From Liolophura sinensis (taxonomy: Eukaryota; Mollusca; Polyplacophora; Chitonida; Chitonidae), in contig NC_088295.1 in the NCBI RefSeq assembly GCF_032854445.1, positions 1,926,501-1,990,500 on the forward strand: a stretch of 64,000 bases of DNA, written 5' to 3'. Both the position numbers and the translations under genes were made by a program. The notes below the pieces were generated by a model, which was not told where the DNA came from, searched no databases, and saw only the letters and a program-made list of their open reading frames with translations. Positions 1,771 through 58,261 of the stretch are shown here, in pieces. Positions within the stretch are counted from its first letter, which is position 1. Every line of letters begins with the position of its first letter.

Positions 1771-1891
1771 CGTTTTCTCTTAAGATGGAAGTGAACACAC
1801 AAACCGAGGATGACACAGAGCAGGATTCCCGCGGATACGCCGGCCACGATACCTATGATGATGTCAGAGAGGTCAGAAGGGCCGTCTATCT
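1771..1891 (-). CDS. transmembrane exon of a type I EGF/cysteine-rich membrane protein
   Basis: Seen: read on the minus strand, this 121-bp exon starts after an acceptor ending TACTGTTGTAG and ends at a donor GTAAGAT. It encodes a short polar stretch (IDGPSDLSD), then about 22 hydrophobic residues (IIIGIVAGVSAGILLCVILG), then a basic stop-transfer segment HLKRKR. That is the layout of a single-pass type I membrane segment with the cytoplasmic side following. The exon starts in phase 1, which fits the exon at 4100-4203, and ends in phase 2, so more cytoplasmic exons must lie left of the window. Inference: the gene is a cell-surface receptor or adhesion protein; no family is recognised. A plus-strand open frame across the same bases lacks any such pattern and is discarded. 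Confidence 0.8.
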
Positions 1892-2268
1892 CTACAACAG
1901 TAAATACACACAGAATGTACATTACACAGATTCAGTCACGATACAGGTAAAAAGTTGTTCTGAAGTGGAGAACGTGTATAAGAAAGAAATCTTTTCAAAT
2001 TTATAAATCGTTTCTTCAAGGTTTGCTTGTTTTTTTTCTTACACCATGAAGTACACACCCTGAATGTATACAGTACTCAGTATTTCAGTATATACAAAGC
2101 ATAAACATGCAGTTCATACAACTCCAGTATTTTATTTGATTGCCAGAAACTAGAGTGCCTAAGGGTAAACTACCAACTTTCGATGAGTTGAACTGATGGA
2201 ACTTTGTTACCCGTGACACACAGATAGGCTGAAGGTACACCAGACGTGGTCTGTAACAACATAAAAAT

Positions 2269-3925
2269 GGGCTCAAGATAGAGGGGACGAGGCCTTTGAC
2301 ACATACAAATAGGCTCAAGATAGAGGGGACGAGGCCTTTGACACATACAAATAGGCTCAAGATAGAGGGGACGAAGCCTTTGACACATACAAATAGGCCC
2401 AAGATAAAGGGGATGAGGCCTTTGACACATACAAATAGGCTCAAGATAGAGGAGATGAGGCCTTTGACACATACAAATGGCTCAAGATAGAGGGGATGAG
2501 GCCTTTGACATATAAATAGGCTCAAGATAGAGGAGACGAGGCCTTTGACACATACAAATAGGCTCAAGATAGAGGGGATGAGGCCTTTAACACATACAAA
2601 TAGGCTCAAGATAGGGGAGATGAGGCCTTTGACACATACAAATAGGCCCAAGATAGAGGGGATGAGGCCTTTGACACATATAAATAGGCTCAAGATAGAG
2701 GGGATGAGGCCTTTGACACATACAAATAGGCTCAAGATAGAGGGGATGAGGCCTTTGACACATACAAATAGGCTCAAGATAGAGGAGATGAGGCCTTTGA
2801 CACATACAAATGGCTCAAGATGGAGGGGATGAGGCCTTTGACACATACAAATAGGCCCAAGATAGAGGGGACGAGGCCTTTGACACATACAAATAGGCTC
2901 AAGATAGAGGAGACGAGGCCTTTGACACATACAAATAGGCTCAAGATAGAGGGGACGAGGCCTTTGACACATACAAATAGGCTCAAGATAGAGGAGATGA
3001 GGCCTTTAACACATACAAATGGCTCAAGATAGAGGGGATGAGGCCTTTGACATATAAATAGGCTCAAGATAGAGGAGACGAGGCCTTTGACACATACAAA
3101 TAGGCTCAAGATAGAGGGGATGAGGCCTTTAACACATACAAATAGGCTCAAGATAGGGGAGATGAGGCCTTTGACACATACAAATAGGCCCAAGATAGAG
3201 GGGATGAGGCCTTTGACACATATAAATAGGCTCAAGATAGAGGGGATGAGGCCTCTGACACATACAAATAGGCCCAAGATAGAGGGGATGAGGCCTTTGA
3301 CACATACAAATAGGCTCAAGATAGAGGAGATGAGGCCTTTGACACATACAAATGGCTCAAGATGGAGGGGATGAGGCCTTTGACACATACAAATAGGCCC
3401 AAGATAGAGGGGATGAGGCCTTTGACACATACAAATAGGCTCAAGATAGAGGAGACGAGGCCTTTGACACATACAAATAGGCTCAAGATAGAGGGGACGA
3501 GGCCTTTGACACATACAAATAGGCTCAAGATAGAGGGGACGAAGCCTTTGACACATACAAATAGGCTCAAGATAGAGGGGATGAGGCCTTTGACACATAC
3601 AAATAGGCTCAAGATAGAGGAGATGAGGCCTTTGACACATACAAATGGCTCAAGATGGAGGGGATGAGGCCTTTGACACATACAAATAGGCTCAAGATAG
3701 AGGGGATGAGAGCTTTGACACATACAAATAGGCTCAAGATAGAGGAGATGAGGCCTTTGACACATACAAATAGGCTCAAGATAGAGGAGATGAGGCCTTT
3801 GACACATACAAATAGGCTCAAGATAGAGGGGATGAGGCCTCTGACACATACAAATTGGCTCAAGATAGAGGGGATGAGGCCTTTGACACATACAAATAGG
3901 CCCAAGATAGAGGGGATGAGGCCTT
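2269..3925. repeat. 42-bp minisatellite, about 39 copies
   Basis: Consensus begins GGCTCAAGATAGAGGGGATG and ends in CACATACAAATA. A few units are 40 bp because of a TA deletion. The unit is a multiple of three and lacks stops in several frames on both strands, which creates long artificial open frames. A 542-bp block (13 units) is duplicated inside the array. It lies in the intron between the exons at 4100-4203 and 1771-1891. Confidence 0.95.
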
Positions 3926-4099
3926 CAAGACATGAAACTGCACAAATGACCACGCAATTATCAATGACTGCTTAAACTGTCATCCATGCCATCAAACACA
4001 GAGAGCAGGGGAATACACAAATTCCCGGCCTTAGGACAGGATTGAACTCACAAACACAGACATGAAATGGTATTATAAGCATAGACATTGCATACTTAC

Positions 4100-4203
4100 G
4101 AGTACAGACATTGCCCTGTATATTCCCAGTGTCTATGATTTCTGCCTTCCCTGTACATGCACGGAGGCATTCTCGTGTCTGCTTGTCAATAAAATGGACA
4201 CAT
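4100..4203 (-). CDS. cysteine-rich ectodomain exon of the membrane protein
   Basis: Seen: a 104-bp minus-strand exon between an acceptor ending TTTCTGATTTCAG and a strong donor GTAAGTATG. It encodes CVHFIDKQTRECLRAC followed by TGKAEIIDTGNIQGNVCT, with four cysteines. It enters in phase 2 and leaves in phase 1. The two bases left by the exon at 5612-5663 complete an Arg codon at its start, and the single base at its end completes a Gln codon with the transmembrane exon. Known: cysteines at such spacing are typical of disulphide-rich extracellular modules. Inference: this is the membrane-proximal part of the ectodomain. Identity beyond that is not recognised. Confidence 0.8.
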
Positions 4204-4253
4204 CTGAAATCAGAAATATGGCAATCTAAATCAAAATGTATAAAGAGTTGCAA

Positions 4254-5611
4254 ATACCCTCTAGGGGATTAGCCCATTCTCATCTGTAATACAGATGTGA
4301 AATTTCTGACGTGCTTCACTTATAACAACATGAATATACACAAATAAAATACGGGAACAGTTTAGAATCGCACTTATGACCACTTATTCAAACAGATTAA
4401 AGTGACCATTTAAAACAGCAGGCTTTCAATTTGAAAGGTAATTTATTCCGTTGAAATGGTCCTTTTGTTTTCCCATTAGTTTTATGGACTGGGAAATACT
4501 GACTTATTGAGGGCATTCCAGCATGATAACAATGGTATAAGGACTGCTGTTGTGAAATATGTTAAAAAGGAACTTAGCTGTGATAAAATAAACAAAAGGT
4601 GTATCAGTTAACTGTACAGTTTATCATCAACATTTTTGAAAACACAACCCATTAAGGGATGAATGAAGTTTTTGAGATTACATATGTAGGCTGAGATTAT
4701 CTGAAATATCACATACATGTACCACATATCTGCCTGAAGTTAACAGGTCATCAAAGCATATTTACATGGTATTATTCTTACTCAAACAATTAAAGGTTGA
4801 TGAGATAGTCATCATTTATCAACAACAAATACAGTAAGATCTGGAACCAGTTTGTTAAAAAAAAAAACCCAAAAAACAGAGCAGATGCATGAAAAGCCCT
4901 TGGGCAGCTTTAGCAAAGAAAAGAAGAAAGTGAAAACATCGCTATAACTTGATATGTATTTCCTGTTTACAGGGATCAATTGGTCTGCTAACAAAGAGCA
5001 CCCCAGACTGGGCTAGTTGTGCCCCACTCTAGCACTGTCACCATATGAATGTGTATTTACACTGTACTCAAGATTTTTTGTTTCATTTGTTCTCTCTCAT
5101 TCATGGATCAATTAACAGAGGTAGGTTAATCTCCTGTTAAACTAAGACCACGGAAATCCTGTGTGTTCACAAAGAAAATTTAAGATTGTTTGATGAATTG
5201 TTTACCAAATTAAAAAGCCAGGTAATTTATTTATAAAATAGAGAACTTTCACATCTCACATAGTGTTATTAAAAAAAACAAAAAAAAAAGTAACAATCTT
5301 AACAGCAGCAATGATTAAATACAATAAATATAAATGTACCAAACTTTCTTTTTCCGTCTCTACGAACTGTGACGGCATTAAAACTGAATGATATGACTGA
5401 ATTTAGGTTGTGTGGGTTATTTATAATTTGTAGGACATGTACATGTGGCAGTTGAGGTATGCCCGTCTTACAGTGATAATAAAGGTCCATATGTAATTAC
5501 ACTGATCACAGTGACAAATCATTTGTTAGAATAATGGGGTTGTTATGTTCAGGCGCTTGCTCCCTATTAAGACTGAGAGGTTGGCTGGGAGGTCACAGTA
5601 GATATACAAAC
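4254..5611. other. intron sequence, nothing recognised
   Basis: AT-rich single-copy-looking DNA between two minus-strand exons. Several A runs occur (4857-4867, 5270-5288). I see no array, no convincing exon and no recognisable mobile element. Confidence 0.5.
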
Positions 5612-5663
5612 CTCTGACAGGTGCCTTCCACACAACGCACACAGTCCGCGTTTGAGCAGCTCG
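5612..5663 (-). CDS. small cysteine-rich ectodomain exon of the membrane protein
   Basis: Seen: a 52-bp minus-strand exon after an acceptor ending TGTTTCTTGCAG and before a donor GTTTGTATAT. The donor is a little unusual (GTTTGT) but acceptable. It encodes SCSNADCVRCVEGTCQ, four cysteines in 16 residues. It begins in phase 1 and ends in phase 2. Phase agrees with the EGF-like exon at 18484-18624 upstream and the exon at 4100-4203 downstream, giving an uninterrupted frame across all four exons. Inference: part of a compact disulphide-rich module. The 12.8-kb intron upstream holds five minisatellites plus the SINE-like array at 17.7 kb. Confidence 0.75.
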
Positions 5664-6159
5664 CTGCAAGAAACAAACAGCACAGACAAATGAAATTCAC
5701 GCCCCACAGTTAAATAGGCTAATGACTGAGTTAATACACAAACAGAAATAAAACATGCATTTCAACCTTGGATATACATTTATCTTGAGCATATTTCAGC
5801 CTGTTATACCACCATAGACAAACAGGTGGGGGATAGGGCTGGGTCAGTCTAACCTACCTACCTGTAACTGTATATATGACCTGAGCAAATTACCTGCCTC
5901 CTGCCTAATGACTTCCTTAAACAGGTGGACAGAGTATATGCTGCATAAAACAGCAGGGTGGAGATTTTGTTTTCCTCACTACATGTATGCTTCATCAGTG
6001 ACTTGACACCCCAGCCCCACTCTTCCTCTTCCCCTCAGTCCACATATGTAAGTATTACTAACGCCAATACACTTGAATAGGCACCTCATATAAATTAATC
6101 ACTCAGGACAAAACAATTACTTCAATCTAGACAAGTATCACGTATATACAGACGTCAAA

Positions 6160-6805
6160 AAGAAGTCCATACAATAACAGGTACATATGTATTATGATGA
6201 ATAATTACAGGCCAGTATGTGAGCCCAGTATTGATACTGATGGTCTCCTCAATTCCAGGTGTTGAACCATACCTGTGTTTGTAAGCAGTCCATACAATCA
6301 CAGGTACATATGTATTATGATGAATAATTACAGGCCAGTATGTGAGCCCAGTATTGATACTGATGGTCTCCTCAATTCCAGGTGTTGAACCATACCTGTG
6401 TTTGTAAGCAGTCCATACAATCACAGGTACATATGTATTATGATGAATAATTACAGGCCAGTATGTGAGCCCAGTATTGATACTGATGGTCTCCTCAATT
6501 CCAGCTGTTGAACCATACCTGTGTTTGTAAGCAGTCCATACAATCACAGGTACATATGTATTATGATGAATAATTACAGGCCAGTATGTGAGCCCAGTAT
6601 TGATACTGATGGTCTCCTCAATTCCAGGTGTTGAACCATACCTGTGCCTGTAAGCAGTCCATACAATCACAGGTACATATGTATTACGATGAATAATTAC
6701 AGGCCAGTATGTGAGCCCAGTATTGATACTGATGATCTCCTCAATTCCAGCTGTTGAACCATACCACACAGGCTGTACCTGTGCCTGTAAGCAGTCCATA
6801 TATGG
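6160..6805. repeat. 123-bp tandem repeat, about 5 copies
   Basis: GTCCATACAATMACAGGTAC recurs at 6165, 6288 and 6411 and onward with a 123-bp period. Because 123 is a multiple of three, one minus-strand frame stays open for about 220 codons. Differences between copies change residues freely, so there is no sign of protein selection. Confidence 0.9.
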
Positions 6806-7159
6806 GCAACCGGTTCTCACCCTAGTTGGTCAAGCTCCTGCCACATTAATAGCTAAGGTGGCAAGAATTAAATACGTTTCACATCTTTCTTTCTTTCTCA
6901 AAGAAGTAAATTAATTTTGGGTGAAGATGTAAAGACACTAGCAGTGTGCATAGCAAATAAAGACTCAAACTATGGCCAAAGTTTTCATATGCAAACAATA
7001 TGCAAAAGTCTTAACCCAACACAGCAGTGATAAAAGATGCCTCTGATAAGACTTTATTCAAAGGCTGAAGTACCTTGCATATTTATGTGGAAACTTATAA
7101 ATTATACATATGTACCTTGACAAGAAGATATGGATAACAAAACATTATTAAAAAAAAAA
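6806..7159. other. intron sequence, nothing recognised
   Basis: AT-rich spacer between two arrays with a short A run near 7150. No exon, element or repeat is recognised. The 496-bp stretch 5664-6159 upstream is likewise featureless. Confidence 0.4.
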
Positions 7160-7164
7160 ACACA

Positions 7165-8605
7165 ACCAACATGACAATAACTAGGACCTAAGACAGGCCA
7201 CACCCCCAAAATGGTGACTAGGACCTAAGACAAGCTACACCACCAACATGATGATTAGGACCTAAGACAAACCACACAACCAACATGACAATCACTAGGA
7301 CCTAAGACAGGCCACACCACCAAAATGGTGACTAGGACCTAAGACAAGCTACACCACCATAATGGTGACTAGGACCTAAGACAAGCTACACCACCAACAC
7401 AGTGACTAGGACCTAAGACAACCCACACCCCCAACATGGTGACTAGGACCTAAGACAAACCACACAACCAACATGACAATAACTAGGACCTAAGACAACC
7501 CACACCCCCACATGGTAACTAGGACCTAAGACAAACCACACAACCAACATGACAATAACTAGGACCTAAGACAAACCACACAACCAACATGATGACTAGG
7601 ACCTAAGACAAACCACACAACCAACACAGTGACTAGGACCTAAGACAACCCACAACCCCAAAATGGTGACTAGGACCTTAAACAAGCCACACCCCCAACA
7701 TGGTGACTGGGACCTAAGACAAACCACACAACCAACACAGTGACTAGGACCTAAGACAAACCACACCCCCAACACGGTGGATAGGACCTAAGACAAACCA
7801 CACCACTAACACAGCAACTAGGACCTAAGATGAACCACACCGTCAACAGAGTAATTAGAACCTAAGACAAAGCACACAATCAACCCGGATAACTAGGACC
7901 TAAGACAAACCACACAGCCAACACAGTAACTAGGGCCTAGACAAACCACACAACCAACACAGCAACTAGGACCTAAGACAAACCACACAACCAACACAGC
8001 AACTAGGACCTAAGACAAAGCGCACAACCAACAAAGTAACTAGGACCTAAGACAAACCACACAACTAACACAGCAACTAGGACCTAAGACAAACCACACA
8101 ACCAACACAGCACCTAGGACCTAAGACAACCACACAAACAACATAGTAACTAGGGCCTAAGACAAACCACACAACCAACACAGCAACTAGGACCTAAGAC
8201 AAACCACACAACCAACACAGCAACTAGGACCTAAGACAAACCACACAACTAACACAGCAAACTAGGACCTACGACAAACCACACACCCAACACAGTAACT
8301 AGGACCTAAGACAAACCACACAGCCAACACAGCAACTAGGACCTAAGACAAAGTGCACAACCAACACAGCAACTAGGACCTAAGACAAACCACACAACTA
8401 ACACAGCAAACTAGGACCTACGACAAACCACACAACCAATACAGCAACTAGGACCTACGACAAATCACACAACCAATACAGCAACTAGGACCTAAGACAA
8501 ACCACACAACCAACACAGCAACTAGAACCTTAGACAAATCACACAAACAACACAGTAACTAGGACCTAAGACAAATGACACAACCAACATGGTAACTACG
8601 ATCTA
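7165..8605. repeat. about 37-bp minisatellite, about 39 copies
   Basis: Core ACTAGGACCTAAGACAAACC followed by ACACAACCAACACAGCA. The left third (to about 7760) carries ATGGTG-type variants and the right part CACAGCA-type variants. Unit length varies by 1-3 bp and divergence is moderate, so this array is older than the 40-bp one. Confidence 0.92.
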
Positions 8606-9574
8606 AGACCTCAGAAGTTTTCAAACTGGTGCAGAAAGAACTGTGCTAAATGCTATGAACTGTTCGTAAAATCATGTTTTTTATTAACCCCAAAATGTGT
8701 CACTGCTTGTCTGAACTATAAATAATGCTGACAGATATTTTTTTTATTTAAATTGACCAAAAGCTCTTATAGCTGTACATGAAGTGTGGACTATGGCCCA
8801 CTACACAGATAGCTCTGAAGTAAGGAGAAATAATTCATAGGAGTGATGACTGTAGAAATGTAGGCCCTAAAGCTATGGGCCATTCATACATGAGATATAC
8901 GGGTACTCCAGTCTATATTCAGCACTAAACTCTACAATTTATGATCATTCGTAAGGTCAACACTTTCACCGAAGCACTCTAGCCAGTGTTGTAATAGCTG
9001 ATATGCTTTAGACTGTTTCCTCTTTTAAAATCAGCCACTGTCTAATTCAAATATGCAGTACTTGTGAACAGACCCAGCTGAGTTATAACAATTACTTCTT
9101 TGATCAGTTTATAAGTACATGTCGACCTATGACCTGTGCCGACCCATGTGCAAAACTACTGATCTTACTGGAATTCAAAAATTGATCCCATCACTAACTT
9201 ACGCCAAAAAGCGAAAAGGCCGTAGCATGTTCATTTTGAAGACAACAAACATTCAACATTAAATCTCTAACTTTAACCGCTGACATTCATGCTGAGCTGA
9301 CATAATTTGAATTGATTACCATAGCAATTAATAGCGCTTTAGCAGACTTCTTTCATTTATTCATAGCAATATACATCAACTCACTCCAATTCAGCAAAGA
9401 TGTTTGAATTGGTTCAACACATTTATCTAGCCCTTTTAGAAAAATCAACATTTTGGAGTCAAAGTACAACCCACTCCCTATGCTGGCTGAGGTATCCCAG
9501 GATTTAAACAAATTAACAAATGCACAACAAGGGGCTAAGATTGACAGCTTGTATCACCTTTCCAACACTCATAT
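8606..9574. other. intron sequence, nothing recognised
   Basis: Single-copy-looking AT-rich DNA. No exon with convincing splice sites and no mobile element were found. Confidence 0.4.
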
Positions 9575-9985
9575 CAATCACACAGGTAACAGTCATTCAC
9601 CTGCTGTGGCTACCTGTACACCTGACATGATGCCTGTACACTGTTATCATGTTCATCCATCACACAGGTAACAGTCACTCACCTGTTCTGTCTACCTGTA
9701 CACCTGACATGATGCCTGTACACTGTAGTCATGTTCCTCAATCACACAGGTAACAGTCACTCACCTGTTCTGTCTACCTGTACACATGACATGATGCCTG
9801 TACACTGTAGTCATGCTCCTCAATCACACAGGTAACAGTCACTCACCTGCTGTGGTTACCTGTACACCTGACATGGTGCCTGTACACTGTAGTCATGTTC
9901 CTCAATCACACAGGTAACAGTCACTCACCTGTTCTGTCTACCTGTACACCTGACATGATGCCTGTACACTGTTATTCTCTTCCTT
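9575..9985. repeat. 82-bp tandem repeat, 5 copies
   Basis: CACAGGTAACAGTCACTCAC recurs at about 9581, 9663, 9745, 9827 and 9909. Each unit also holds CCTGTACACCTGACATGATG. On the minus strand each copy carries splice-donor-like GTGAGTGACTG. Confidence 0.92.
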
Positions 9986-10374
9986 TATTCTCCATCCATC
10001 TCAGACAGCCACTTGACATTCACCTGTGCCTCAAGCCCATTAAGCTGCCCCAACACACACTTGTGTGCACATCAGAGTTAATCAGCCAGCATCTTTTGAT
10101 GGCTGGAGTGCCCAAAATCATCCAAGTGCATCCAATAAAGTTGTGAGAGAAAGGAGCAGGGCTATCACGAGCGGCACAGAGAACTCAGGCTTGGTTATGA
10201 CCTGGTCTTCAGCCCTGAGAATTCCTTAATGTGAAGGCACCTGCCTCTAAGCTGAGCCGTAACATCCCTCCAGGCTCATGGGAAGTACAACAAACCAAAT
10301 ATCACCTGATCAATACATTCCTCTGCCTTCACCTGAACAAGTTTAAGCCAGACAGCTTCAGCTTTGTTCACATC

Positions 10375-13300
10375 TAATAGACAATAGCCTGAGGTGGCCA
10401 CTTTATTTCACCATGAACACATATCTAACACACAATAACCTGAGGTAGCCAGTTCATTTCACCATGAACACACATCTTACACCCAACAGCGTGGGGTAGA
10501 CAGTTTATTTCACCATGTACACACATTTAACAGCCAACAGCATGGGGTAGACAGTTTATTTCACCATGTACACACATTTAACACATAATAACCTTGGGTA
10601 GCCAGTTCATTTCAACATGAACACACATCTAACACACAATAACCTAGGGTAGCCAGTTTATTTCACCATGTACACACATTTAACACACAATAACCTAGGG
10701 TAGCCAGTTTACTTCACCATGTACACACATTTAACACACAATAACCTAGGGTAGCCAGTTTATTTCACCTTGTACACACATTTAACACACAATAACCTAG
10801 GGTAGCCAGTTTATTTCACCAACAACATGGGGTAGCCAGTTTATTTCACCATGTACACACATCTAACACACAACAGCCTGAGGTAGCCAGTTCATTTCAA
10901 CATGAACACACATCTAACACCCAACAGCGTGGGGTAGCCAGTTTATTTCACCATGTACACACATTTAACACAATAACCTGGGGTAGCCAGTTTATTTCAC
11001 CATGTACACACATCTAACACAATCACATGGGGTAGCCAGTTCATTTCAACATGAACACACATCTAACACCCAACAGCGTGGGGTAGCCAGTTTATTTCAC
11101 CTTGTACACACATCTAACACACAATAACCTGGGGTAGCCAGTTCATTTCAACATGAACACACATCTAACACCCAACAGCGTGGGGTAGCCAGTTTATTTC
11201 ACCTTGTACACACATTTAACACACAATAACCTGGGGTAGCCAGTTCATTTCAACATGAACACACATCTAACACCCAACAGCGTGGGGTAGCCAGTTTATT
11301 TCACCATGTACACACATTTAACACACAATAACCTGGGGTAGCCAGTTCATTTCAACATGAACACACATCTAACACACAACAGCATGGGGTAGCCAGTTCA
11401 TTTCACCTTGTACACACAATTAACACACCATAACCTAGGGCAGCCAGTTCATTTCAACATGAACACACATCTAACACACAATAACCTGGGGTAGCCAGTT
11501 TATTTCACCTTGTACACACAATTAACACACAATAACCTGGGGTAGCCAGTTTATTTCACCTTGTACACACATTTAACACACAATAACCTGGGGTAGCCAG
11601 TTCATTTCAACATGAACACACATCTAACACCCAACAGCGTGGGGTAGCCAGTTTATTTCACCATGTACACACATTTAACACACAATAACCTGGGGTAGCC
11701 AGTTCATTTCAACATGAACACACATCTAACACCCAACAGCGTGGGGTAGCCAGTTTATTTCACCATGTACACACATTTAACACACAATAACCTAGGGTAG
11801 CCAGTTTATTTCACCAACAACGTGGGGTAGCCAGTTTATTTCACCATGTACACACATCTAACACACAACAGCCTGGGGTAGCCAGTTCATTTCACCATGA
11901 ACACACATCTAACACCCAACAGCGTGGGGTAGCCAGTTCATTTCACCATGAACACACATCTAACACACAATAACCTGGGGTAGCCAGTTTATTTCACCTT
12001 GTACACACATTTAACACACAACAACCTGGGGTAGCCAGTTCATTTCAACATGAACACACATCTAACACCCAACAGCGTGGGGTAGCCAGTTCATTTCACC
12101 ATGAACACACATCTAACACACAATAACCTGGGGTAGCCAGTTTATTTCACCTTGTACACACAATTAACACACAATAACCTGGGGTAGCCAGTTTATTTCA
12201 CCTTGTACACACATTTAACACACAATAACCTGGGGTAGCCAGTTCATTTCAACATGAACACACATCTAACACCCAACAGCGTGGGGTAGCCAGTTTATTT
12301 CACCTTGTACACACATTTAACACAATAACCTGGGGTAGCCAGTTCATTTCAACATGAACACACATTTAACACACAATAACCTGGGGTAGCCAGTTCATTT
12401 CAACATGAACACACATCTAACACCCAACAGCGTGGGGTAGCCAGTTTATTTCACCTTGTACACACATTTAACACACAATAACCTGGGGTAGCCAGTTCAT
12501 TTCAACATGAGCACACATCTAACACCCAACAGCATGGGGTAGCCAGTTTATTTCACCTTGTACACATATCTAACAGCCAACAGCCAACAGCATGGGGTAG
12601 ACAGTTTATTTCACCATGAACACACATCTAACACCCAACAGCCTGGGGTAGACAGTTTATTTCACGTTGAACACACATTTAACACACAATAACCTAGGGT
12701 AGCCAGTTTATTTCACCATGTACACACATCTAACACACAATAACCTGGGGTAGCCAGTTTATTTCACCATGTACACACATTTAACACACAATAACCTAGG
12801 GTAGCCAGTTTATTTCACCATGTACACACATTTAACACACAATAACCTGGGGTAGCCAGTTCATTTCAACATGAACACACATCTAACACCCAACAACGTG
12901 GGGTAGCCAGTTTATTTCACCATGTACACACATCTAACACACAATAACCTGGGGTAGCCAGTTCATTTCAACATGAACACACATCTAACACCCAACAGCG
13001 TGGGGTAGCCAGTTTATTTCACCTTGTACACACATTTAACACACAATAACCTGGGGTAGCCAGTTCATTTCAACATGAACACACATCTAACACCCAACAA
13101 CGTGGGGTAGCCAGTTTATTTCACCTTGTACACACATTTAACACACAATAACCTGGGGTAGCCAGTTCATTTCAACATGAGCACACATCTAACACCCAAC
13201 AGCATGGGGTAGCCAGTTTATTTCACCTTGTACACACATTTAACACACAATAACCTGGGGTAGCCAGTTCATTTCAACATGAACACACATCTAACACCCA

Positions 13301-13598
13301 ACAGCGTGGGGTAGCCAGTTTATTTCACCTTGTACACACATCTAACACACAATAACCTGGGGTAGCCAGTTCATTTCACCATGTACACACATCTAACACA
13401 CAATAACCTGGGGTAGCCAGTTTATTTCACCATGTACACACATCTAACACACTATAACCTAGGGTAGCCAGTTCATTTCAACATGAACACACATCTAACA
13501 CCCAACAGCCTGGGGTAGACAGTTTATTTCACCTTGTACACACATTTAACACACAATAACCTAGGGTAGCCAGTATATTTCAACATGAACACACATTT
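10375..13598. repeat. 51-bp minisatellite, about 63 copies, with 102-bp dimer order
   Basis: GGTAGCCAG recurs every 51 bp (for example 10648, 10699, 10750). Two unit types alternate through much of the array. One has CCCAACAGCGTGGGGTAGCC with TTTATTTCACC and TGTACACAC. The other has CACAATAACCTGGGGTAGCC with TTCATTTCAACATGAACAC. It is the longest array of the window. Edges are more diverged than the centre. Confidence 0.95.
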
Positions 13599-14640
13599 CA
13601 GGATATGACCCAAACAGTCATTTTATATTTAAATTTCAATTTAGAACCCCTTAAATGCTTTATCTTCTCTTTGCATTATGCTAAATCTTTTCCTAACCTG
13701 GTCTTTTTTCCTTTTTTTCTCTCACCTGTGTATCTGTTTAATCATCACTATTTTTGGACTTAGTGTGAATTTCCATTTTCAGCATTCATTAACACCTAAT
13801 TTCTTTGTACAGCCAACCATAAAAACATCTTACCACAGCACTTCTCTGACTTCATAACAAGAAATACTAGGGTATAAAACTTGGGTTGACAGTGGTTTAG
13901 AGAGGCTCAAGTGGTGGCCATATACAAGTATCAGGTAAAGTCAGTTGTGTACAAATATCTTGGAGATAAGCCTTGGCCAGCCTACGCCGAGATTTACCGA
14001 GATGCCTTGTCAACCTGAGTGACGGGTCTCTTGTACCCAGGTGAACAGACTGATCCTACAATGTCAAGAGGCTGGAGATGTTTGCTCTATGTAGAGAAAC
14101 ATGTCACAACAACATGAGCTTATTGGCACACACCTAGGCCTACATGTAGACACATAGAACAGGACGTACATGTGCAAAAGCTCTACAACATACACATTTT
14201 AACAATTAAAATCTCTTTTATGAATACCTGATTGACAACTCTGATAGTGTGAAGTGATAGCAATTATGCGGCCTTTTCTACATGCCACTATGGACACAGG
14301 GGAACTTAAAAATATGCAAAATAATGAACAAGGTTTTGCTCCAGAAAAAAATGACGTACTATTTCTCCTAAAACACCAGAATGTATTTAGCTGAAGACAT
14401 TCAGAATATGCGGTGACCTTAAAGCCCTATTTAATATACATAAAAAAATGACAACTGTCAGTGCCAAAAAAAAAGTACAGAATACTAAACTAAGCTAATT
14501 GTACATTAGATATGTAAACTGATGTATAGACATGACTGTAATACAAAAGCAGGCCCCCTCTGACAGAGTGGGCCAACTACATGTACCTCCACATAGTGGT
14601 AGACATATATATGTAAGCATAGAGATGCGCTGTATTGTCA
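13599..14640. other. intron sequence, nothing recognised
   Basis: About 1 kb of AT-rich DNA between the two largest arrays of the left half. No exon, element or repeat is recognised. Confidence 0.4.
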
Positions 14641-17505
14641 GGTCCCTACACTACCTGTACCTATGTGTGCTGTGTCCACACGTCCCTACACTACCTGTAC
14701 CTATGTGTGCTGTGTCCACACGTCCCTACACTACCTGTACCTATGTGTGCTGTGTCCACACGTCCCTACACTACCTGTACCTATGTGTGCTGTGTCCACA
14801 CGTCCCTACACTACCTGTACCTATGTGTGCTGTGTCCACACGTCCCTACACTACCTATACCTACCTATGTGTGCTGTGTCCACACGTCCCTACACTACCT
14901 GTACCTATGTGTGCTGTGTCCACACGTCCCTACACTACCTGTACCTATGTGTGCTGTGTCCACACGTCCCTACACTACCTGTACCTATGTGTGCTGTATC
15001 CACACGTCCCTACACTACCTGTACCTATGTGTGCTGTGTCCACACGTCCCTACACTACCTGTACCTATGTGTGCTGTATCCACACGTCCCTACACTACCT
15101 GTACCTATGTGTGCTGTGTCCACACGTCCCTACACTACCTGTACCTATGTGTGCTGTGTCCACACGTCCCTACACTACCTGTACCTATGTGTGCTGTGTC
15201 CACACGTCCCTACACTACCTGTACCTATGTGTGCTGTATCCACACGTCCCTACACTACCTGTACCTATGTGTGCTGTGTCCACACGTCCCTACACTACCT
15301 GTACCTATGTGTGCTGTGTCCACACGTCCCTACACTACCTGTACCTATGTGTGCTGTGTCCACACGTCCCTACACTACCTGTACCTATGTGTGCTGTGTC
15401 CACACGTCCCTACACTACCTGTACCTATGTGTGCTGTGTCCACACGTCCCTACACTACCTGTACCTATGTGTGCTGTGTCCACACGTCCCTACACTACCT
15501 GTACCTATGTGTGCTGTGTCCACACGTCCCTACACTACCTGTACCTATGTGTGCTGTGTCCACACGTCCCTACACTACCTGTACCTATGTGTGCTGTATC
15601 CACACGTCCCTACACTACCTGTACCTATGTGTGCTGTATCCACACATCCCTACACTACCTGTACCTATGTGTGCTGTGTCCACACGTCCCTACACTACCT
15701 GTACCTATGTGTGCTGTATCCACACGTCCCTACACTACCTGTACCTATGTGTGCTGTATCCACACATCCCTACACTACCTGTACCTATGTGTGCTGTGTC
15801 CACACGTCCCTACACTACCTGTACCTATGTGTGCTGTGTCCACACGTCCCTACACTACCTGTACCTATGTGTGCTGTGTCCACACGTCCCTACACTACCT
15901 GTACCTATGTGTGCTGTATCCACACGTCCCTACACTACCTGTACCTATGTGTGCTTTATCCACACGTCCCTACACTACCTGTACCTATGTGTGCTGTATC
16001 CACACGTCCCTACACTACCTGTACCATGTGTTCTGTGTCCACAAGTCCCTACACTAACTGTACCTATGTGTGCTGTGTCCACACGTCCCTACACTACCTG
16101 CACCTATGTGTGCTGTATCCACACGTCCCTACACTACCTGTACCTATGTGCACTGTATCCGCAGGTCCCTACACTACCTGTACCTACATGCACTGTATCC
16201 AAAGGTCCCTACACTACCTGTACCTTCATGCACTGTAATCCACACATCCCTACACTACCTGTACCTATTTGCACTGCATCCGCAGGTCCCTACACTACCT
16301 GTACCTACACTACCTGTACCTCCATGCACTGTATCCACAGGTTCCTACACTACCTGTACCTACATGCAATGTATCCACACGTCCCTACACTACCTGTACC
16401 TACCTGCACTGTATCCACACGTCCCTACACTACCTGTACCTACGTGCACTGTATCCGCATATCCCTACACTACCTGTACCTACATGCACTGTATCCGCAC
16501 GTCCCTACACTACCTGTACCTATGTGCACTGTATCCGCATCTCCCTACACTACCTGTACCTATGTGCACTGTATCCGCACGTCCCTACACTACCTGTACC
16601 TATTTGCACTGTATCCACACGTCCCTACACTACCTGTACCTACGTGCACTGTTTCCACATGTCCCTACACTACCTGTACCTACAGGTACTGTATCCACAG
16701 GTCCCTACACTACCTGTACCTCTGTGCACTGTATCCACAGGTCCCTACACTACCTGTACCTACCTGCACTGTATCCATACGTCCCTACACTACCTGTACC
16801 TATGTGCACTGTATCAGCACGTCCCTACACTACCTGTACCTACATGCACTGTATCCACAGGTCCCTACACTACCTGTATCTATGTGCACTGTATCAGCAT
16901 ATCCCTACACTACCTGTACCTACGTGCACTGTATCCGCACTTCCCTCACTACCTGTGCCCACATGCACTGTATCCACAGGTTTCTACACTACCTGTACCT
17001 ATGTGCACTGTATCCGCATATCCCTACACTACCTGTACCTACGTGCACTGTATCCACACGTCCCTACACTACCTGTACCTACATGCATTGTATCCACACA
17101 TCCCTACACTACCTGTACCTACATGCACTGTATCCACAGGTCTCTACACTACCTATACCTACATGCATTGTATCCACACATCCCTACACTACCTGTACCT
17201 ATTTGCCCTGTATCCACAGGTCCCTACACTACCTATACCTACATGCACTGTATCCGCATGTCCCTGCACTACCTGTACCTACATGCACTGTATCCACACG
17301 TCCCTACACTACCTGTACCTATGTGTGCTGTATCCGCATATCCCTACACTACCTGTACCTACGTACACTGTATCCACATGTCCCTACACTACCTGTACCT
17401 ACGTGCACTGTATCCACATGTCCCTACACTACCTGTACCTATGTGCCCTGTATCCGCAGGTCCCTACACTACCTGTACCTATGTGTGCTGTACCCACATG
17501 TCTGT
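14641..17505. repeat. 40-bp minisatellite, about 72 copies, two domains
   Basis: The unit is GTCCCTACACTACCTGTACC followed by TATGTGTGCTGTGTCCACAC. From 14641 to about 16150 copies are nearly identical. From about 16150 to 17505 they are diverged, with CATGCACTGTATCCACAG-type variants. The unit has no stop codon in any plus-strand frame and 40 leaves remainder 1 on division by 3, so all three plus frames stay open for hundreds of codons (up to 966 residues). The minus strand has TAG in each frame. These open frames are a by-product of the unit, not evidence of a gene. Confidence 0.97.
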
Positions 17506-17699
17506 ACATTACATACATTTGTCACAGGAGAGTAGAGCTGAGGCATGTACAGATCGCTGTGATAACCCTGTGGCACAATGGTACCACCCACTGCTTATCA
17601 AACACTGGTTCTTGTGTCACCATACAATATCAGCATGATTGACACTTTCCTTTTACAATGAACATGTACACAGACTGCTATCAACATGCCAATAATTAC

Positions 17700-18200
17700 A
17701 TACATGTAAGGTCTGGCTTCAGTATACTATGACCAGATGAGGCGTCATGTCTTGTGTCAGTATGAATAGATGGGGACATCTTGTCTGGTGTCAGTGTACC
17801 ATGACTATGTGGGACGTCACACAGCAGTGTCATGTCTGGTGATTAGGAGGGTGATGTGCATGGTGTCAGTATACTGTGACTAGATGAGGCGTCATGTCTG
17901 GTGTCAGCATGAATAGATGGGACGTCTTGTCTGGTGTCAGTGTACCATGACTGTGGGACGTCACGCAGCGGAGTCATGTCTGGTGATTAGGAGGGGTGAC
18001 GTGCCTGGTGTCAGTATACTGTACCTAGGTGGAGTATCATGTCTGGTATTAGTGCACTATGATAGATAGGGTGTCAAGTCTGCTGTCAGTATAATGTGAC
18101 TAAGTGAGGTGTCATGTCTGGTGTCAGTATTTTGTGACCAGGGAGTGGGGGAAGGTCATAACTGGTGTCAGTACAGCTAGGCGTGCCAAGCCTTGGTATA
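17700..18200. repeat. degenerate tandem array resembling a SINE body
   Basis: Repeated segments such as GTGTCAGTATACTGTGACTA followed by GATGAGGCGTCATGTCTGG occur about eight times, with a larger period of about 150 bp seen as two long similar halves. The same words occur once in the tRNA-headed SINE at 61631-62002 (GTGTCAGTGTAATGTGAGTG, then GTCATGTCTGGTGTC). The array is probably derived from that SINE's body. Confidence 0.75.
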
Positions 18201-18483
18201 CTGTGACTATGGCATATAGTGTCTCTGGCATGCTATTTCAGTGAGACACTAGATAATATTGAAAGTATGAGGTCATATCTGCCTTATCCAATGTCACACT
18301 AAGCAATATTATTATGTCAAATTTTATGGACACGGATTTTGTTCTTCCGGACACTGATTTTGTTCTTCCAGACACTGATTTTTGTTGATGAGGACTCATG
18401 GGTCTACATGGGTCAAGTACCGATATTCATGGCCAATCATTTTAGACCATGATGTTAAATCTGGAGTAGCACTGTTCACTCAC

Positions 18484-18624
18484 CATTCACACAGTCCTTG
18501 AGGTTAGAGTGTAAGGTTAATCCTTCTTCACAGTCACATGTCTGGTTCACACACCCACTTCCAAAACCACAGTCTGATCGCTGCTCACAACCTCCAGACT
18601 CCCCAACCACAGGACACGCCAATA
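18484..18624 (-). CDS. EGF/EB-like domain exon of the membrane protein
   Basis: Seen: a 141-bp minus-strand exon between an acceptor ending AATTTTGTTGCAG and a donor GTGAGTG. It encodes one module with eight cysteines: LACPVVGESGGCEQ, RSDCGFGSGC, VNQTCDCEEGL, then KDCVN. It is flanked by phase-1 introns on both sides. Known: single EGF-like modules are often encoded by symmetrical phase-1 exons; the CDCEEG turn is EGF-like, while the spacing also recalls EB modules. It joins in frame to 5612-5663, forming an Ala codon across the junction. Inference: the most N-terminal confident part of the ectodomain in this window. The signal-peptide exon was not identified. Confidence 0.78.
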
Positions 18625-19040
18625 CTGCAACAAAATTGTGATCGTTGCTTTAATAATGCTGAACTCAAGAATTTTTCATTTACGTAAAGGCAGCCAGAGT
18701 CATTTTAGGGGAAGGGGAGGGAGGAAACCTGAATGCATGTTGTAAACCAATGGCCTCTGAAAAGTTAGTGACCAACTTTCTCACACATGCAATGAAGTAC
18801 GGATATACACACAACATTGGTCACGAACGAGTAGTTTGTAATGAACTATGAAAATGGGCACACAGAAGCATCACCAACCTCTCTTTGTCACCACGACCCC
18901 ACAGACAACCTTTGACCCTGCGCCTTATGTGTCATATCACCTGAAATCACTAGTATGTTTTATTTGCACATTTTGTGAATGTAAATAAACTATACATGCA
19001 TTCGTGTAGGCCCCCCTGCATTATACAACCCTTACAGAAC
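18625..19040. other. intron sequence, nothing recognised
   Basis: Spacer between the EGF-like exon and the SINE/LINE composite. No exon or repeat is supported. Confidence 0.4.
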
Positions 19041-19070
19041 AAAGACATAATTTGATTTATTTGATTCGTG
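19040..19070 (-). mobile_element. 3' tail piece of a SINE split by a LINE
   Basis: AATTTGATTTATTTGATTCG matches the reverse complement of the A/T-rich tail seen on other SINE copies here (CAATCAAATAAATAAA at about 35850). It continues at 20154 after the LINE. The last 13 bases (19058-19070) are one copy of the target-site duplication. Confidence 0.6.
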
Positions 19071-20153
19071 AGATCCAAAGTGGTTATGTCCTGAGCCTCA
19101 GGTTGATACCTCGCTCTCCTCCCTGAAGAAATGTTCCACCAACCCTTTAGTATACCAGCAGGAGTTTAGTAATATGTGTTCAAAGTATCCATTTTATCAC
19201 CGTATATTCACTGACGGTTCCAAGAATGATGATGGCGTGGCTTCTGCCGCTGTCCTTGGACCCAGAACCGTTTCAACTCGGTTTCCAAATTCCTGTTCTG
19301 TATTTACTGCGGAAGCCAAGGCAATTTTGTGCGCACTTCGGTCCATTCCAGAGCTAGGAGGTAGCAGATTTCTCATCTGCTCTGACTCCCTTTCCTGCCT
19401 CCAGGCAATTCGGGCTAGTTCGCCTGTACATCCAGACATTCTGTCTATCAGGGAGATGTTTAAATGACTTAATGAAGATTTTATCATTGTCTTTTGTTGG
19501 GTGCCCGGGCATATGGGTATCCCTGGGAATACTGCTGCAGATGAAGCCGCGAAGGCGGCTTTGCATTCCGTTACTACCCAAACTGGCGTTCCATATTCGG
19601 ACTTGCGTTCACTTATTTGCTCCTATATCAAGCACTTGTTTCAGGCTCAATGGGATGGCCAGACAACCAACAAACTGCATGATATTCGTCAGTTTGTTGG
19701 TCCAGCGCCTTCCCTTTCACGACATCGTGTCCGCTCTTGCATTTTGAGGAGGTGTCGTATCGGTCACACACGTGCTATGCATGGGTATTTGTTAAAAGGA
19801 GAAGATGCTCCTCATTGCTTTGCTTGTGATCAACGGTTCACAGTCAAGCACATATTGCTTGACTGTGGCGACTTTGCTCCTGTACGAGATTCCTTTTATC
19901 ACGTGAGCTTTCTTTCAGAACTTTTCAATTCTGTAGAAAGTGATACTATTTTTGACTTTCTCTCTGCCATTGGTATGGCAGGAAAGCTGTAATTTTAAAC
20001 TACCGTCTGTGTTTGTTATGTGACTTCTGGTGTCCTTTTTGACTGAATAGTAAATGAATTATCCGTAGAAGATCGACTATTTGACGTTGTATTGTCGCGA
20101 TAAAACTGAAATATTGTTGAAAGCGACGTTAAAACTTTCACTCACTCACTCAC
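19071..20153 (+). mobile_element. 5'-truncated non-LTR retrotransposon (LINE) with RNase H domain
   Basis: The insert is bounded by a 13-bp direct repeat TATTTGATTCGTG (19058-19070 and 20154-20166). It keeps only the 3' end of the element: an RNase H domain, a C-terminal cysteine/histidine motif, a 3' UTR with AAAGCGACGTTAAAACTTTC and a CACTCACTCACTC tail. Known: RNase H downstream of reverse transcriptase occurs in the I, Nimb, R1 and related LINE clades. 5' truncation with a target-site duplication is the usual result of target-primed reverse transcription. No reverse-transcriptase part remains here. Confidence 0.88.
19084..19992 (+). pseudogene. LINE ORF2 C-terminal fragment, RNase H, one nonsense codon
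   Basis: One frame runs from 19084 to the stop at 19992, broken only by TGA at 19465-19467. The RNase H acidic residues are visible in FTDGSKNDDG, TAEAKAILCAL, CSDSLSCLQ and GNTAADEAAK. After it comes a CFACDQRFTVKHILLDCGDF segment, the C-terminal CCHC-like motif common in such ORF2 proteins. The TGA sits where an Arg (CGA) would be a simple C-to-T decay. With its 5' part missing the copy cannot move by itself. The high intactness suggests a fairly recent insertion. Confidence 0.85.
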
Positions 20154-20390
20154 TATTTGATTCGTGTTATGTGCTGTGAAATAAGAATATTTCACTTATA
20201 TGATGGTGGCCAGCATTCTGGTGGGAGGAAACCGGGCAGAGCCCAGGGGAAACCCACAACCATCCGCAGGTTGGTGGCAGACCTTCTCACGTATGGCCAG
20301 TCAAGAAGACAGCATGAGCTGGGCTTGAAATCACTGCGACCCTCCTGAGTCGTTGCACCGTGCAGGCATGCTACGGAGGCCCCGAAAGAA
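20154..20390 (-). mobile_element. tRNA-headed SINE, minus orientation, interrupted by the LINE
   Basis: Read on the minus strand: a tRNA-like head with a box-B-like GTGATTTCAAGCCC, then a central block with GGTCTGCCACCAACCTGCGG and GGGTTTCCCCTGGGCTCTGC, then TATAAGTGAAATATTC and an A/T-rich tail. Related pieces occur at 35721-35870, 35872-36013 and 46370-46545. Similar central blocks are known from mollusc and other invertebrate SINE families; exact family assignment needs a library search. Confidence 0.75.
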
Positions 20391-20452
20391 ATAATTACTA
20401 CAGTGTATTATTACACCCAGTTGTCAAAACAACTGTAAACTACGTGCATGTA

Positions 20453-20790
20453 CGTGTATTTTCGTCATCATTCACAGTCAGGTGGACAGCAAGGGATGTT
20501 TCCAAGGAACACTACATGTGCACGTATTTCCATTGTCATTCACAGTCAGGCCACCGGACAGGGATGTTTCCACGGAAGACTACATGTGCACGTATTTCCA
20601 TTGTCATTCACAGTCAGGCCACCGGACAGGGATGTTTCCACGGAAGACTACATGTACACGTATTTCCATTGTCGTTCACAGTCAGGCCACCGGACAGGGA
20701 TGTTTCCACGGAAGACTACATGTACACGTATTTCCGTCCTCATTCATAGTCAGGCTGACAGATGTTTACAAAAAAGACTACGTGTACACA
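20453..20790. repeat. 68-bp tandem repeat, about 5 copies
   Basis: Unit begins CGTATTTCCATTGTCATTCA and contains CAGGCCACCGGACAGGGATG. The outer copies are diverged or shortened. All three plus frames are partly open, but only because of the repeat. Confidence 0.9.
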
Positions 20791-21729
20791 ACTGGTATAT
20801 GAACTTGTCTACGTGCTGTAGGATTATTGTGAGATTCGTGTTTTTTAACTCTTTTTTTCATATCTTTGTCTAAGTCCAAACCTTAAATCAAATATAGATC
20901 TGGGGATTCGTCTGGCAACACCTTGGAGTACACAATGGCACATATACCCAATGTTCTCAGTCAAACTGTGGGGACAGTGTGTGAACATAGATTGTTGTGG
21001 GAGCAAATCTCCAGACAGACAGCAGACACACAAGCTCTACACCACTTAGCGTATGAGTCACAGTTACGTATCAAAATATTTACTCAAGCTACAAAAAAAC
21101 GATGAAGACAGAAACATATGTACATTTGTATAAAGGAGGAGGAATACATACTGCATAGCAAGAGTAAGGGCATGGTCGTGAGGGTTGAGGCAGCCGGCTG
21201 AATGACCACCGTCGAGAGGTACTGCAGCATACTCCTCACAGCTTTGTTCTTCCAGGCTGTCAGAGACCTGACCCCTGGCTCATGTTATCATGTTGTCCCT
21301 CAGGTATTCACACAGACACGGTCTGAGCCCCAGCGTACATCCACGGCATTAGTTCGTCAACATGGCCCACTGAGGAAAGAACAGGAACAAATTACATGAA
21401 CTGTCAACAGTCTAGTTGCACTTGTTCTATTGATGAAAAGCCTTTAGACAACCTACATGTCACATTGGACAGGCCTAATGAGGAGCACTTTATCGTATTG
21501 CAACAATTCACAGCAGCATCTTTCATACAGTATTTTAATTCCACATGTGGCCTTCACAAAGGAAATGCCAATCTACATATATACACAGATACATTTAATC
21601 ATGCCGCATGCAGATGTAATATTACATGTACATGACATATTTAACAGGTATCACACACAAATGGAAACTTACCACAAATTAAAAAAAAACGTCCATCTTG
21701 GACATTACTTCCAGGTCAAACTAACCTAT
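20791..21729. other. about 940 bp without a supported feature
   Basis: Several short open frames exist on both strands, but none has a convincing pair of splice sites or a recognisable product. A minus-strand acceptor-like CTGTCCCCACAG lies at about 20980; no coding exon follows with confidence. Confidence 0.35.
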
Positions 21730-22060
21730 ACACACCTGTAAAGACAGTGTACAGGTTTGGATGGTGTGTACAGGTATGGATGGTGAGTACAGGTATTGAC
21801 AGTGTGTACAAGTATGGATAGCATGTACAAGTGTGGATAGAGTGTACAGGTATAGATAGTGTGTACAGGTATGGATAGCATGTACAGGTGTGGATGGTGT
21901 GCACAGGTACCAAATGGATAGTGTGTACAGGTATGGATAGCATGTACAGGTGTGGATGGTGTGCACAGGTACCATATCGATAGTGTGTACAGGTATAGAT
22001 AGCATGTACAGGTGTGGATGGTGTGCACAGGTACCATATGGATAGTGTGTACAGGTGTGG
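21730..22060. repeat. 19-bp minisatellite with larger-order copies
   Basis: Core TACAGGTATGGATAGTGTG. Towards the right a larger unit that includes GTGTGCACAGGTACCATATG is repeated three times. Confidence 0.88.
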
Positions 22061-22094
22061 ACAGCGAGGACCATTTCATTAACATGGATAACTA

Positions 22095-22420
22095 TAAATA
22101 CCACACTTAACACCTCACCTGTACAATGATGCTCACCCAAACACTCTATGTACTACCTGGTGGTCTCTGTACTGTTGTACAAGCTATGCTCCCACAATCA
22201 CTCTATAACCCAGCTGTCAGGTGAACATCAGAACATACCACACTTAACACCTCACCTGTACAATGATGCTCACCCAAACACTCTATGTAGTACCTGTTGG
22301 TCTCTATACTGTTGTACAAGCTATACTCCCACAATCATGCTATAACCCAGCCATCAGGTGAAGATGAGAACATACCCCACTTGACACCTCACCTGTACAA
22401 TGGTCACCTGAACACCCAGA
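22095..22420. repeat. 138-bp tandem repeat, about 2.4 copies
   Basis: CCACACTTAACACCTCACCT starts copies at 22101 and 22239, and a diverged third begins near 22376. Confidence 0.88.
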
Positions 22421-22492
22421 CTGTACCTGACTTGTTCTGCTACATGTAGATGTATAGGATACCTGTATGACAACATTAAACTTTGTATCAAT

Positions 22493-22582
22493 CGCATGGG
22501 TCCTCGGTCTATCATATCAGCTATTTTTGGTCCATATGCCATGGGTCCTCAGTCTATCATATCAGCTATTTTTGGTCCATGC
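22493..22582. repeat. 45-bp direct duplication
   Basis: CATGGGTCCTCGGTCTATCA and the following 25 bp occur twice in a row (from 22495 and 22540) with one main substitution (CGG versus CAG). Confidence 0.85.
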
Positions 22583-23860
22583 GCATGAGAGTATATGTTT
22601 TATATCCTGCATCACGGCAAATATATAACCAGGTCTCAAGCAGACAAAAAAAATACACTGCTTTATTAGCTGTACTGAGAACATAATAAGGACATGCACA
22701 TCTTGTAGGCACATGCATTATGTATGTCTGCTGTCAATACCACTCCAATTTACCTTAACAAATCTCTAAACTTACAGATGGAACAGGTGATGAGTGGTAT
22801 ATCCCAAAGTATATATTGAATTAAATGTCAGTTATTAAGCATGAATAAGATCTGTGACAAACTAAAAAGCATTTCAATTATATAAATACATGAATCTTGG
22901 TTGTTTGTTAATTACAATATAATCCCACATACTGATACAAGCTTCCTGAGCCTTAGCGGGGACGAGTTAGAAAATATCACACTGAATTTTCATGTAAATG
23001 TACCCACTTGACATTGCTTTTATACCAGTGAACAAAGCTTATAAGCCTCCTCACCTGGGCACAGCCCTCCATAAAGCTGCCAATAGTTAACTCTAGTTAA
23101 TGTGGCCTGATATGCCCTGAGGGGTTAGCCGGGGCACAGTCACCGAAGCATACACACGCACGTTTACATTGTACATGTATTTATACATTATTAACACTAC
23201 TGTTAGTACAGAACTGATGGAAGGCGTGAACAAATGCCACATGGTATCACACATCACTCTCCGCTCACTTCACTAATGACAGGTAATTATTGTGTTTATC
23301 TAATTCCATGAATGGTCACAGAGAGCTGTGTGTCTGTCACACGTCATCTATGTATATAACCTTATCATAAATATGTTAACACTAAATCTGATCACTACTG
23401 CCAGCATCCTCCAGCAAAATGACCATAACAATCTAAAGGGTATATGAACATTCATTTCTCATACATGGATGGTGGTTTAATAGTGGTGGAAGCATATGTG
23501 TAAAATTTGTCCACTCACAGTGACTAGGAGTTGTGTTAATAGTCTCTGTGTATACATGAACCAAGACTGAATGTAATACTGGCAGCATGATTGCTTACAT
23601 ATACATTCATGAAACCCCTGTTCTCATGCATTATTGCACCAGTAATGGTACATTCATCAGATCCCCCACTTATAAATACATGTTACAAATTTTACAAAGA
23701 CTGACTGCAACAAAATGCAATTCTGCGCACAGTTTAGAAGAGTGTTCTGTTTCAGCAAAGAAAAAAAAATTAATTAAATGAAATTTAATTTTCATTTACC
23801 ATATTTAGCCTAAAATTTTGCCTCCTACAAGTCACAGTCAAGAATGAAGTCTTAACATTA
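22583..23860. other. mostly featureless AT-rich sequence
   Basis: Apart from the weak exon candidate at 23055-23116, no repeat, element or gene is recognised. Confidence 0.35.
23055..23116 (-). CDS. weak candidate upstream exon of the membrane protein
   Basis: A 62-bp minus-strand stretch lies between an acceptor-like CTAACCCCTCAG and a good donor CAG/GTGAGG. In the frame that ends in phase 1, as the EGF-like exon at 18484-18624 requires, it reads AYQATLTRVNYWQLYGGLCP without a stop. The pyrimidine tract is poor and there is no signal peptide. Phase and donor are the only support. It could be chance. Confidence 0.22.
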
Positions 23861-23864
23861 GATA

Positions 23865-24600
23865 CCTCATATTTAAAACTAGGTACCCCAAACCTACCAC
23901 TAGGTTCCCCAAACCTAACACTAGGTACCCATTATATAACACTAGGTACCCAATATCTAACACCAGTTACCCCATATCTAACACTAGGCTCCCCATACCT
24001 AACACTAGGTACCTCAACCTAACACTAGGCACCCCAACCTAACACTAGGCACCCCAACCTAACACTAAGCACCCATATCTAACACAAGGTCCACATACCT
24101 AACACTGGGTACCCATTATACAACACTAGGTACCCATTATATAACACTAGGTACCCATTATATAACACTAGGCACCCCATATCTAACACCAGCTACTCCA
24201 TATCTAACACCAGGTACCCCATACCTAACACTAGGCACCCCAACCTAACACTAGGCACCCATATCTAACACAAGGCACACCATATCTAACACAAGGTACC
24301 ACATACCTAACACTAGGTACCCATTATACAACACTAGGTACCCATTATATAACACTAGATACCCTATTCCTAACACTAGGCACCTCATATCTAACACTAG
24401 GCGCCCTATGTCCAACACTAGGTACCCCATATCTAACACTAGGTACCCCATATCTAAAACCAGGCACCGCATGTCTAACACTAGGCACCCCATATCTAAC
24501 ACTAGGCACCCCATAACTTACACTAGGTACCCCATATCTAAAACAAGGCACCCCATAACTAACACTAGGTACCACATATTTAACACTAGGTATCCCCTGG
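23865..24600. repeat. 21-bp minisatellite, about 35 copies
   Basis: Unit AACACTAGGTACCCCATATC plus one base, with variants CCATTATAT and GGCACCCCAACCT. Runs of variants recur together (for example the ATTATA group near 23930, 24120 and 24330), showing block duplications. Seven codons per unit gives a long artificial minus-strand frame. Confidence 0.93.
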
Positions 24601-25404: not shown

Positions 25405-25470
25405 AATATTCTTGAGCGGGGTGTAAAACACCAAAGAAAAAAATAAATAAAATAATTAAATTGATACGAT
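25405..25470 (+). mobile_element. SINE 3'-end fragment
   Basis: GTAAAATATTCTTGAGCGGG, then GTGTAAAACACCAA and an A-rich AAATAAATAAA tail match the 3' ends of SINEs at about 35990 and 46490. A decayed GGTTTCCCAGAGCCC at about 25140 may be its central block, separated by later insertion or deletion. Confidence 0.5.
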
Positions 25471-25913: not shown

Positions 25914-25919
25914 TGCCGT

Positions 25920-58254: not shown

Positions 58255-58261
58255 CTGTGAA

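Follow-up and report, generated by a model that had tools for sequence, protein, structure and literature searches.

The described systems closest to the locus analysed here are the EB module proteins, the ErbB/EGFR receptors and the EGF-type ligands of EGFR. The EB arrangement comprises eight conserved cysteines. In EGFR, the sequence of which was confirmed against the PDB, the last module of domain IV is spaced C-x2-C-x8-C-x3-C-x21-C. EGF-type ligands are described in PMC4914847 as having an EGF domain alone together with zero to two transmembrane (TM) regions.

A four-exon fragment on the minus strand of a window of 64,000 nucleotides (the whole stretch of DNA that was analysed) partially resembles each of these. 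Like the EB module proteins, exon 1 encodes a cysteine-rich module with C-x-C, but its score lies below the family cut-off and the visible part holds a single module followed by a TM region. Exons 2 and 3 share with domain IV of ErbB/EGFR the spacing C-x2-C-x(8-10)-C-x3-C just outside the membrane (CQRCVHFIDKQTRECLRAC versus CIQCAHYIDGPHCVKTC in EGFR), whereas the place of the ErbB L and CR domains is taken by the EB-like module, and no kinase was seen in the fragment. With the EGF-type EGFR ligands, as defined in PMC4914847, it has in common an EGF-related module upstream of one TM region; the number and spacing of the cysteines are different and the fragment contains an extra Cys-rich stalk. 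We put the chances at about even that a single animal gene, coding for a receptor-like type I single-pass membrane protein, has these as middle exons that follow one another directly or nearly so. The gene is probably real, though the fragment lacks both of its ends.

Exon structure and reading frame

An earlier note on this DNA had proposed four minus-strand exons of 52–141 bp. Reading of the DNA located all of them, each between an AG acceptor and a GT donor and with lengths of 141, 52, 104 and 121 bp:

18484..18624, minus strand: exon 1, 141 bp, seven cysteines, EB/EGF-like module, sequon NQT; acceptor at entry, one codon base left at exit
5612..5663, minus strand: exon 2, 52 bp, SCSNADCVRCVEGTCQ, four cysteines, weak donor (0.9)
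4100..4203, minus strand: exon 3, 104 bp, CVHFIDKQTRECLRACTGKAEIIDTGNIQGNVCT, four cysteines
1771..1891, minus strand: exon 4, 121 bp, membrane-spanning helix and basic stop-transfer stretch KRK(R); donor end in mid-codon

The phases chain into a single open frame as claimed (offset/leftover 2/1, 2/2, 1/1 and 2/2), for a total of 138 open codons, followed by the first two bases of a codon that the last donor splits. No stop interrupts the 416 coding bases of the four exons, and eight of eight splice dinucleotides are present. Exons 1, 3 and 4 contain stops in both alternative frames; exon 2 lacks a stop in any frame and thus does not discriminate between them. Acceptor/donor scores from a generic animal matrix (log2) were 2.5/6.0, 6.8/0.9, 4.2/1.9 and 2.8/5.0 for exons 1–4, so that weak donors are found at exons 2 and 3. 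Judging from sequence, the four exons would be spliced together, with the following introns removed:

5664..18483, minus strand: intron 1, 12,820 bp, 69% tandem repeats
4204..5611, minus strand: intron 2, 1,408 bp, no tandem repeat found
1892..4099, minus strand: intron 3, 2,208 bp, 75% tandem repeats (42-bp unit)

The introns had been described as largely tandem repeats, which is correct for introns 1 and 3 but not for intron 2 (0%). Intron 1 also contains a candidate exon at 14228-14338 (minus strand) that is phase-compatible and encodes four cysteines; it is possibly an additional or alternative exon, chance being likelier.

The size of intron 1 bears on the possibility that two genes have been wrongly joined, exon 1 stemming from one and exons 2–4 from another, or that exons are missing between them. 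The two parts are separated by 12.8 kb, mostly tandem repeat, any junction has a one-in-three chance of agreeing in phase, and use of the candidate exon at 14228-14338 would change the protein. Conversely, the exon 1/2 join provides an eighth cysteine beside the EB-like module as well as an NAS sequon, and no other exon of the TM-plus-basic type flanked by splice sites was found on the minus strand. The sole TM-like resemblance after exon 1 (17646-17699, minus strand, E 2.0 to the TM exon) is located between two tandem arrays, lacks splice sites that are clear to the eye and was taken as chance. Wrong joining is considered rather unlikely.

Encoded protein

The joined frame has cysteines at positions 3, 12, 18, 24, 29, 31, 44, 49, 54, 57, 62, 65, 76, 80 and 97. 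These 15 precede the helix, and two more lie inside it; the odd count on the outer side implies missing exons or a free cysteine. Seven cysteines of the proposed eight-cysteine module are encoded by exon 1, whereas the eighth is the first cysteine of exon 2 and belongs to the module only if the two exons are joined. The same holds for the NAS sequon at residue 46, which, like the NQT sequon at residue 26, falls on the predicted outer side.

The claimed hydrophobic helix is evident at about residues 108–132, with a Kyte-Doolittle value of 2.9 over residues 109–127. The “KRKR anchor” was accepted in part: HLKRK follows the helix, but the final Arg belongs to a codon that the donor interrupts after CG and is not a C-terminus. 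As CGn encodes Arg whatever base comes next, the frame runs past 1771 and leaves the window. The TM helix, the 15 preceding cysteines and the EB match of exon 1 agree with the earlier description as a single-pass, cysteine-rich, EGF-related membrane protein; a single TM region with a Cys-rich ectodomain, present in the visible part, is a trait common to many other proteins. Membrane topology and disulphides are predictions from the residue pattern.

Comparison with known families

Exon 1 together with the first cysteine of exon 2 matched Pfam EB (PF01683) with E 0.0027 and 18.2 bits, below the curated cut-off of 24.3, and the joined frame scored 14.4 bits, short of the same gathering threshold. 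The alignment pairs residues 7–39 with profile positions 19–49 of 52 and includes five of the eight cysteines available upon joining exons 1 and 2 (3, 12, 18, 24, 29, 31, 44 and 49). No match to Pfam EGF was listed for the fragment. A structure model of exon 1 alone was poor (pLDDT 58.8) and contained two pairs of short strands; Foldseek returned 24 matches to it at E up to 10, but none with E 0.001 or below. The top match, to the EGF-like protein Pfs25 (E 1.5), is not significant and was not used as evidence.

The cysteines of exons 2 and 3 are spaced C-x2-C-x10-C-x3-C-x16-C. Local alignment with the last domain IV module of EGFR scored 43, a value that 0.7% of shuffles with fixed cysteines and 0.2% of full shuffles attained (3000 each). 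For two further EGFR modules, the respective scores were reached by 43% and 45% (fixed cysteines) and by 24% and 29% (full) of the shuffles. Since one of the three modules chosen stands above the shuffles, the similarity is a lead and no more. Neither furin-like nor GF_recep_IV appeared among the Pfam matches listed (E up to 10 and 5), where HMMER’s filters drop most matches above about 0.1; the only Pfam match of exons 2 and 3, to a flagellar family (E 0.19), was rejected.

Exon 4 alone matched Pfam TM_ErbB1 (E 0.0019, 18.3 bits, below the cut-off of 27.1) and, more weakly, an adenovirus E3 family, protocadherin, syndecan and Mid2 (E 0.038 to 0.27). As these four unrelated TM families match as well, the helix says little about family. 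The claim that no known family can be assigned holds for the joined protein, but exon 1 has EB as its nearest neighbour and exons 2 and 3 show a spacing like that of one EGFR cysteine module.

The collections covered by the searches, none of them derived from animal genomes, yielded no homologue; the PDB comprises solved chains only. Pattern searches gave seven matches in viral contigs and 49 in prokaryote genomes, none of them confirmed, as expected for an animal gene. PDB matches to F-box/WD-repeat proteins and WDR5 (best E 0.17 with 49 sequences listed, 0.015 with seven listed) were rejected, as no single WD stretch passed the threshold by itself and most cysteines were unmatched in the alignments shown. 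STIM1 in the PDB (E 1.4) and the EGF-containing coagulation factor VII light chain (E 0.35) were not significant, and two unrelated bacterial NCBIfam families (E 0.054 and 0.08) were likewise dismissed. Among the literature matches listed, in the portions consulted, no paper dealt with an EB-TM or an EB-kinase protein, and the consulted portion of PMC8662651 mentions neither molluscs nor lophotrochozoans.

The fragment may also be read as a membrane-anchored precursor of an EGF-family ligand with a short cytoplasmic tail, the module of which is cut free near the membrane, e.g. by a rhomboid protease. Two neighbouring genes are relevant here:

about 58022-61300, minus strand: rhomboid-family protease gene (Pfam Rhomboid E 6.8e-10, frame 61022-61300)
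28861-29280, plus strand: ENTH domain (E 1.6e-53) of an epsin gene, exons probably to about 51 kb

The rhomboid protein is probably catalytically competent, with a GASGG serine motif encoded in 59600-59966 and GYTAHLMGA in the last exon (piece E 0.0047, below cut-off). A Gly/Ala/Ser-rich TM start favours rhomboid cleavage, and the TM region of the fragment begins with IIIGIVAGVSAG, which is of this composition. Moreover, the rhomboid gene is found at a distance of about 40 kb, and PMC4914847 gives this type of ligand an architecture of a lone EGF domain plus zero to two TM regions. Still, EGF ligands have six cysteines compared to the seven to eight of the module, whose inner six are spaced 5, 5, 4, 1 and 12 with an extra cysteine on each side, leaving only four residues between the inner third and fourth. 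In addition, a further Cys-rich stretch separates module and membrane, and the proximity of the rhomboid gene, with the epsin gene in between, is probably coincidence. A ligand precursor appears quite improbable. The distinction between receptor and ligand hinges on the cytoplasmic part, which is missing.

Ends of the fragment

What had been presented as a gene of four exons is a fragment: both ends are open splice sites. The 5′ end of exon 1 is an acceptor, with start codon and signal peptide absent, and the 3′ end of exon 4 is a donor in mid-codon. As the frame goes on after the basic stretch, a cytoplasmic part should exist. No recognisable coding was seen by eye in bases 1–300 of the minus strand, which, in combination with the exon 4 donor, places this part beyond the left edge of the window.

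The search for Cys-rich exons upstream (about 18640-34200) gave nine phase-compatible readings with summed splice scores of at least 5, none of which was EGF/EB-patterned. The stretch 52785-52859 was rejected as the exon directly before exon 1 due to a wrong exit phase. Upstream on the minus strand, 11 readings resembled first exons with a signal peptide; seven of them lay in tandem arrays, one fell in a rhomboid exon, and not one was convincing.

Chance control

Candidate internal exons were counted on both strands outside 23 tandem arrays and compared to 60 first-order Markov copies of the minus strand. Thresholds were set just under the values of the four exons after these had been seen, so that the result is supportive rather than a probability. 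The minus strand holds 68 candidates, seven start sites of Cys-rich exons and one TM-plus-basic exon; the plus strand holds 76, five (in two places) and none, respectively. In the Markov copies, means of 42.9 candidates, 1.1 Cys-rich start sites (sd 1.4, maximum 6) and 0.03 TM-plus-basic exons (maximum 1) were obtained. A TM-plus-basic exon with splice sites occurred twice in the 60 shuffled strands, and none of the 60 reached both minus-strand values. Given the post hoc thresholds and the nearly equal number of Cys-rich sites on the plus strand, the cysteine count alone proves little. The weight is carried by the TM exon and the chained phases, the Cys-rich exons by themselves being less exceptional.

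Three of the seven minus-strand Cys-rich sites are exons of the fragment and one (61187-61290) overlaps a rhomboid exon; the three that start at 14338, 21551 and 52859 are unexplained. A pattern search in six frames detected EGF/EB-like cysteine patterns in three places, of which only 18491-18589 has an exon-like setting, those at 20404-20499 and 42451-42537 overlapping tandem arrays.

These counts also bear on the possibility that the fragment is a decayed relic, or that open pieces have come together by chance. Such an origin is suggested by the lack of a homologue in collections none of which was built from animal genomes, by the post hoc nature of the control and by a degenerate retroelement close to exon 1:

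19072-19992, plus strand: retroelement remnant with RNase H / RVT_3 similarity (E 5e-05 and 0.0004, two open pieces), about 450 bases upstream of exon 1

This remnant is broken by an in-frame stop. Against such an origin, the fragment is free of stops over its four exons with a full set of splice dinucleotides, and the null counts in the Markov copies are low; we regard a relic or chance assembly as distinctly unlikely.

Proposed reading

The fragment is most likely part of a cell-surface receptor, although this is conjecture. Outside the cell, the protein would expose the EB/EGF-like module and a short growth-factor-receptor-like Cys-rich stalk; inside, the basic stop-transfer stretch would lead into a cytoplasmic part coded past the left edge of the window. 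A partner may be bound by the missing upstream domains plus the EB-like module, the disulphide-braced stalk would keep the binding domains off the membrane, and the cytoplasmic part may pass on a signal. The nature of this part is conjectural, a kinase being one possibility. An undescribed class of receptor kinases, with an EB module and a short ErbB-like stalk next to the membrane and the kinase coded beyond the window, is very unlikely.

The assignment to middle exons of a receptor-like gene is favoured by the chained phases and splice sites, the rarity of the TM-plus-basic exon, the two outer sequons, the EB match and the alignment with the EGFR module. Counted against it are the lack of a homologue in the collections searched, the sub-cut-off EB and TM_ErbB1 scores, the agreement with only one of three EGFR modules and the weak donors of exons 2 and 3, together with the five plus-strand Cys-rich sites, the 12.8 kb of intron 1, the odd cysteine count and the poor exon 1 model. 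On present evidence, and until the cytoplasmic part is seen, the gene is of an ordinary, receptor-like animal kind.

If real, it adds one more surface protein with small exons split by repeats, a type that gene finders can miss, and is a reminder that repeat-rich invertebrate genomes may encode more receptors than have been counted. The fragment by itself raises no new question; wider interest hinges on the cytoplasmic part.

Other features of the window

Downstream in the epsin region, the frame 43271-43558 shows a weak ubiquitin-interaction-motif match (E 0.0023, below cut-off) and the frame 50704-51045 contains NPF; with the ENTH frame, these would form one epsin gene.

Minisatellite arrays with different units are numerous, e.g. 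of 42 bp (2259-3925), 51 bp (10369-13598), 40 bp (14642-17502), 74 bp (GC-rich, 34248-35591) and 49 bp (36549-39078). In certain arrays the repetition by itself keeps a long frame open; one of these, at 14623-17535 on the plus strand, runs to 970 codons.

A tRNA-like feature was noted as well:

61635-61706, plus strand: tRNA-like sequence (45.4 bits, above the Rfam gathering score)

It was not reported by ARAGORN in its bacterial setting and is either a tRNA gene or a tRNA-derived element. The motif TACATGTA, common in mollusc and lancelet DNA, occurs 35 times compared to about one expected at equal base frequencies, a value uncorrected for composition and tandem arrays.
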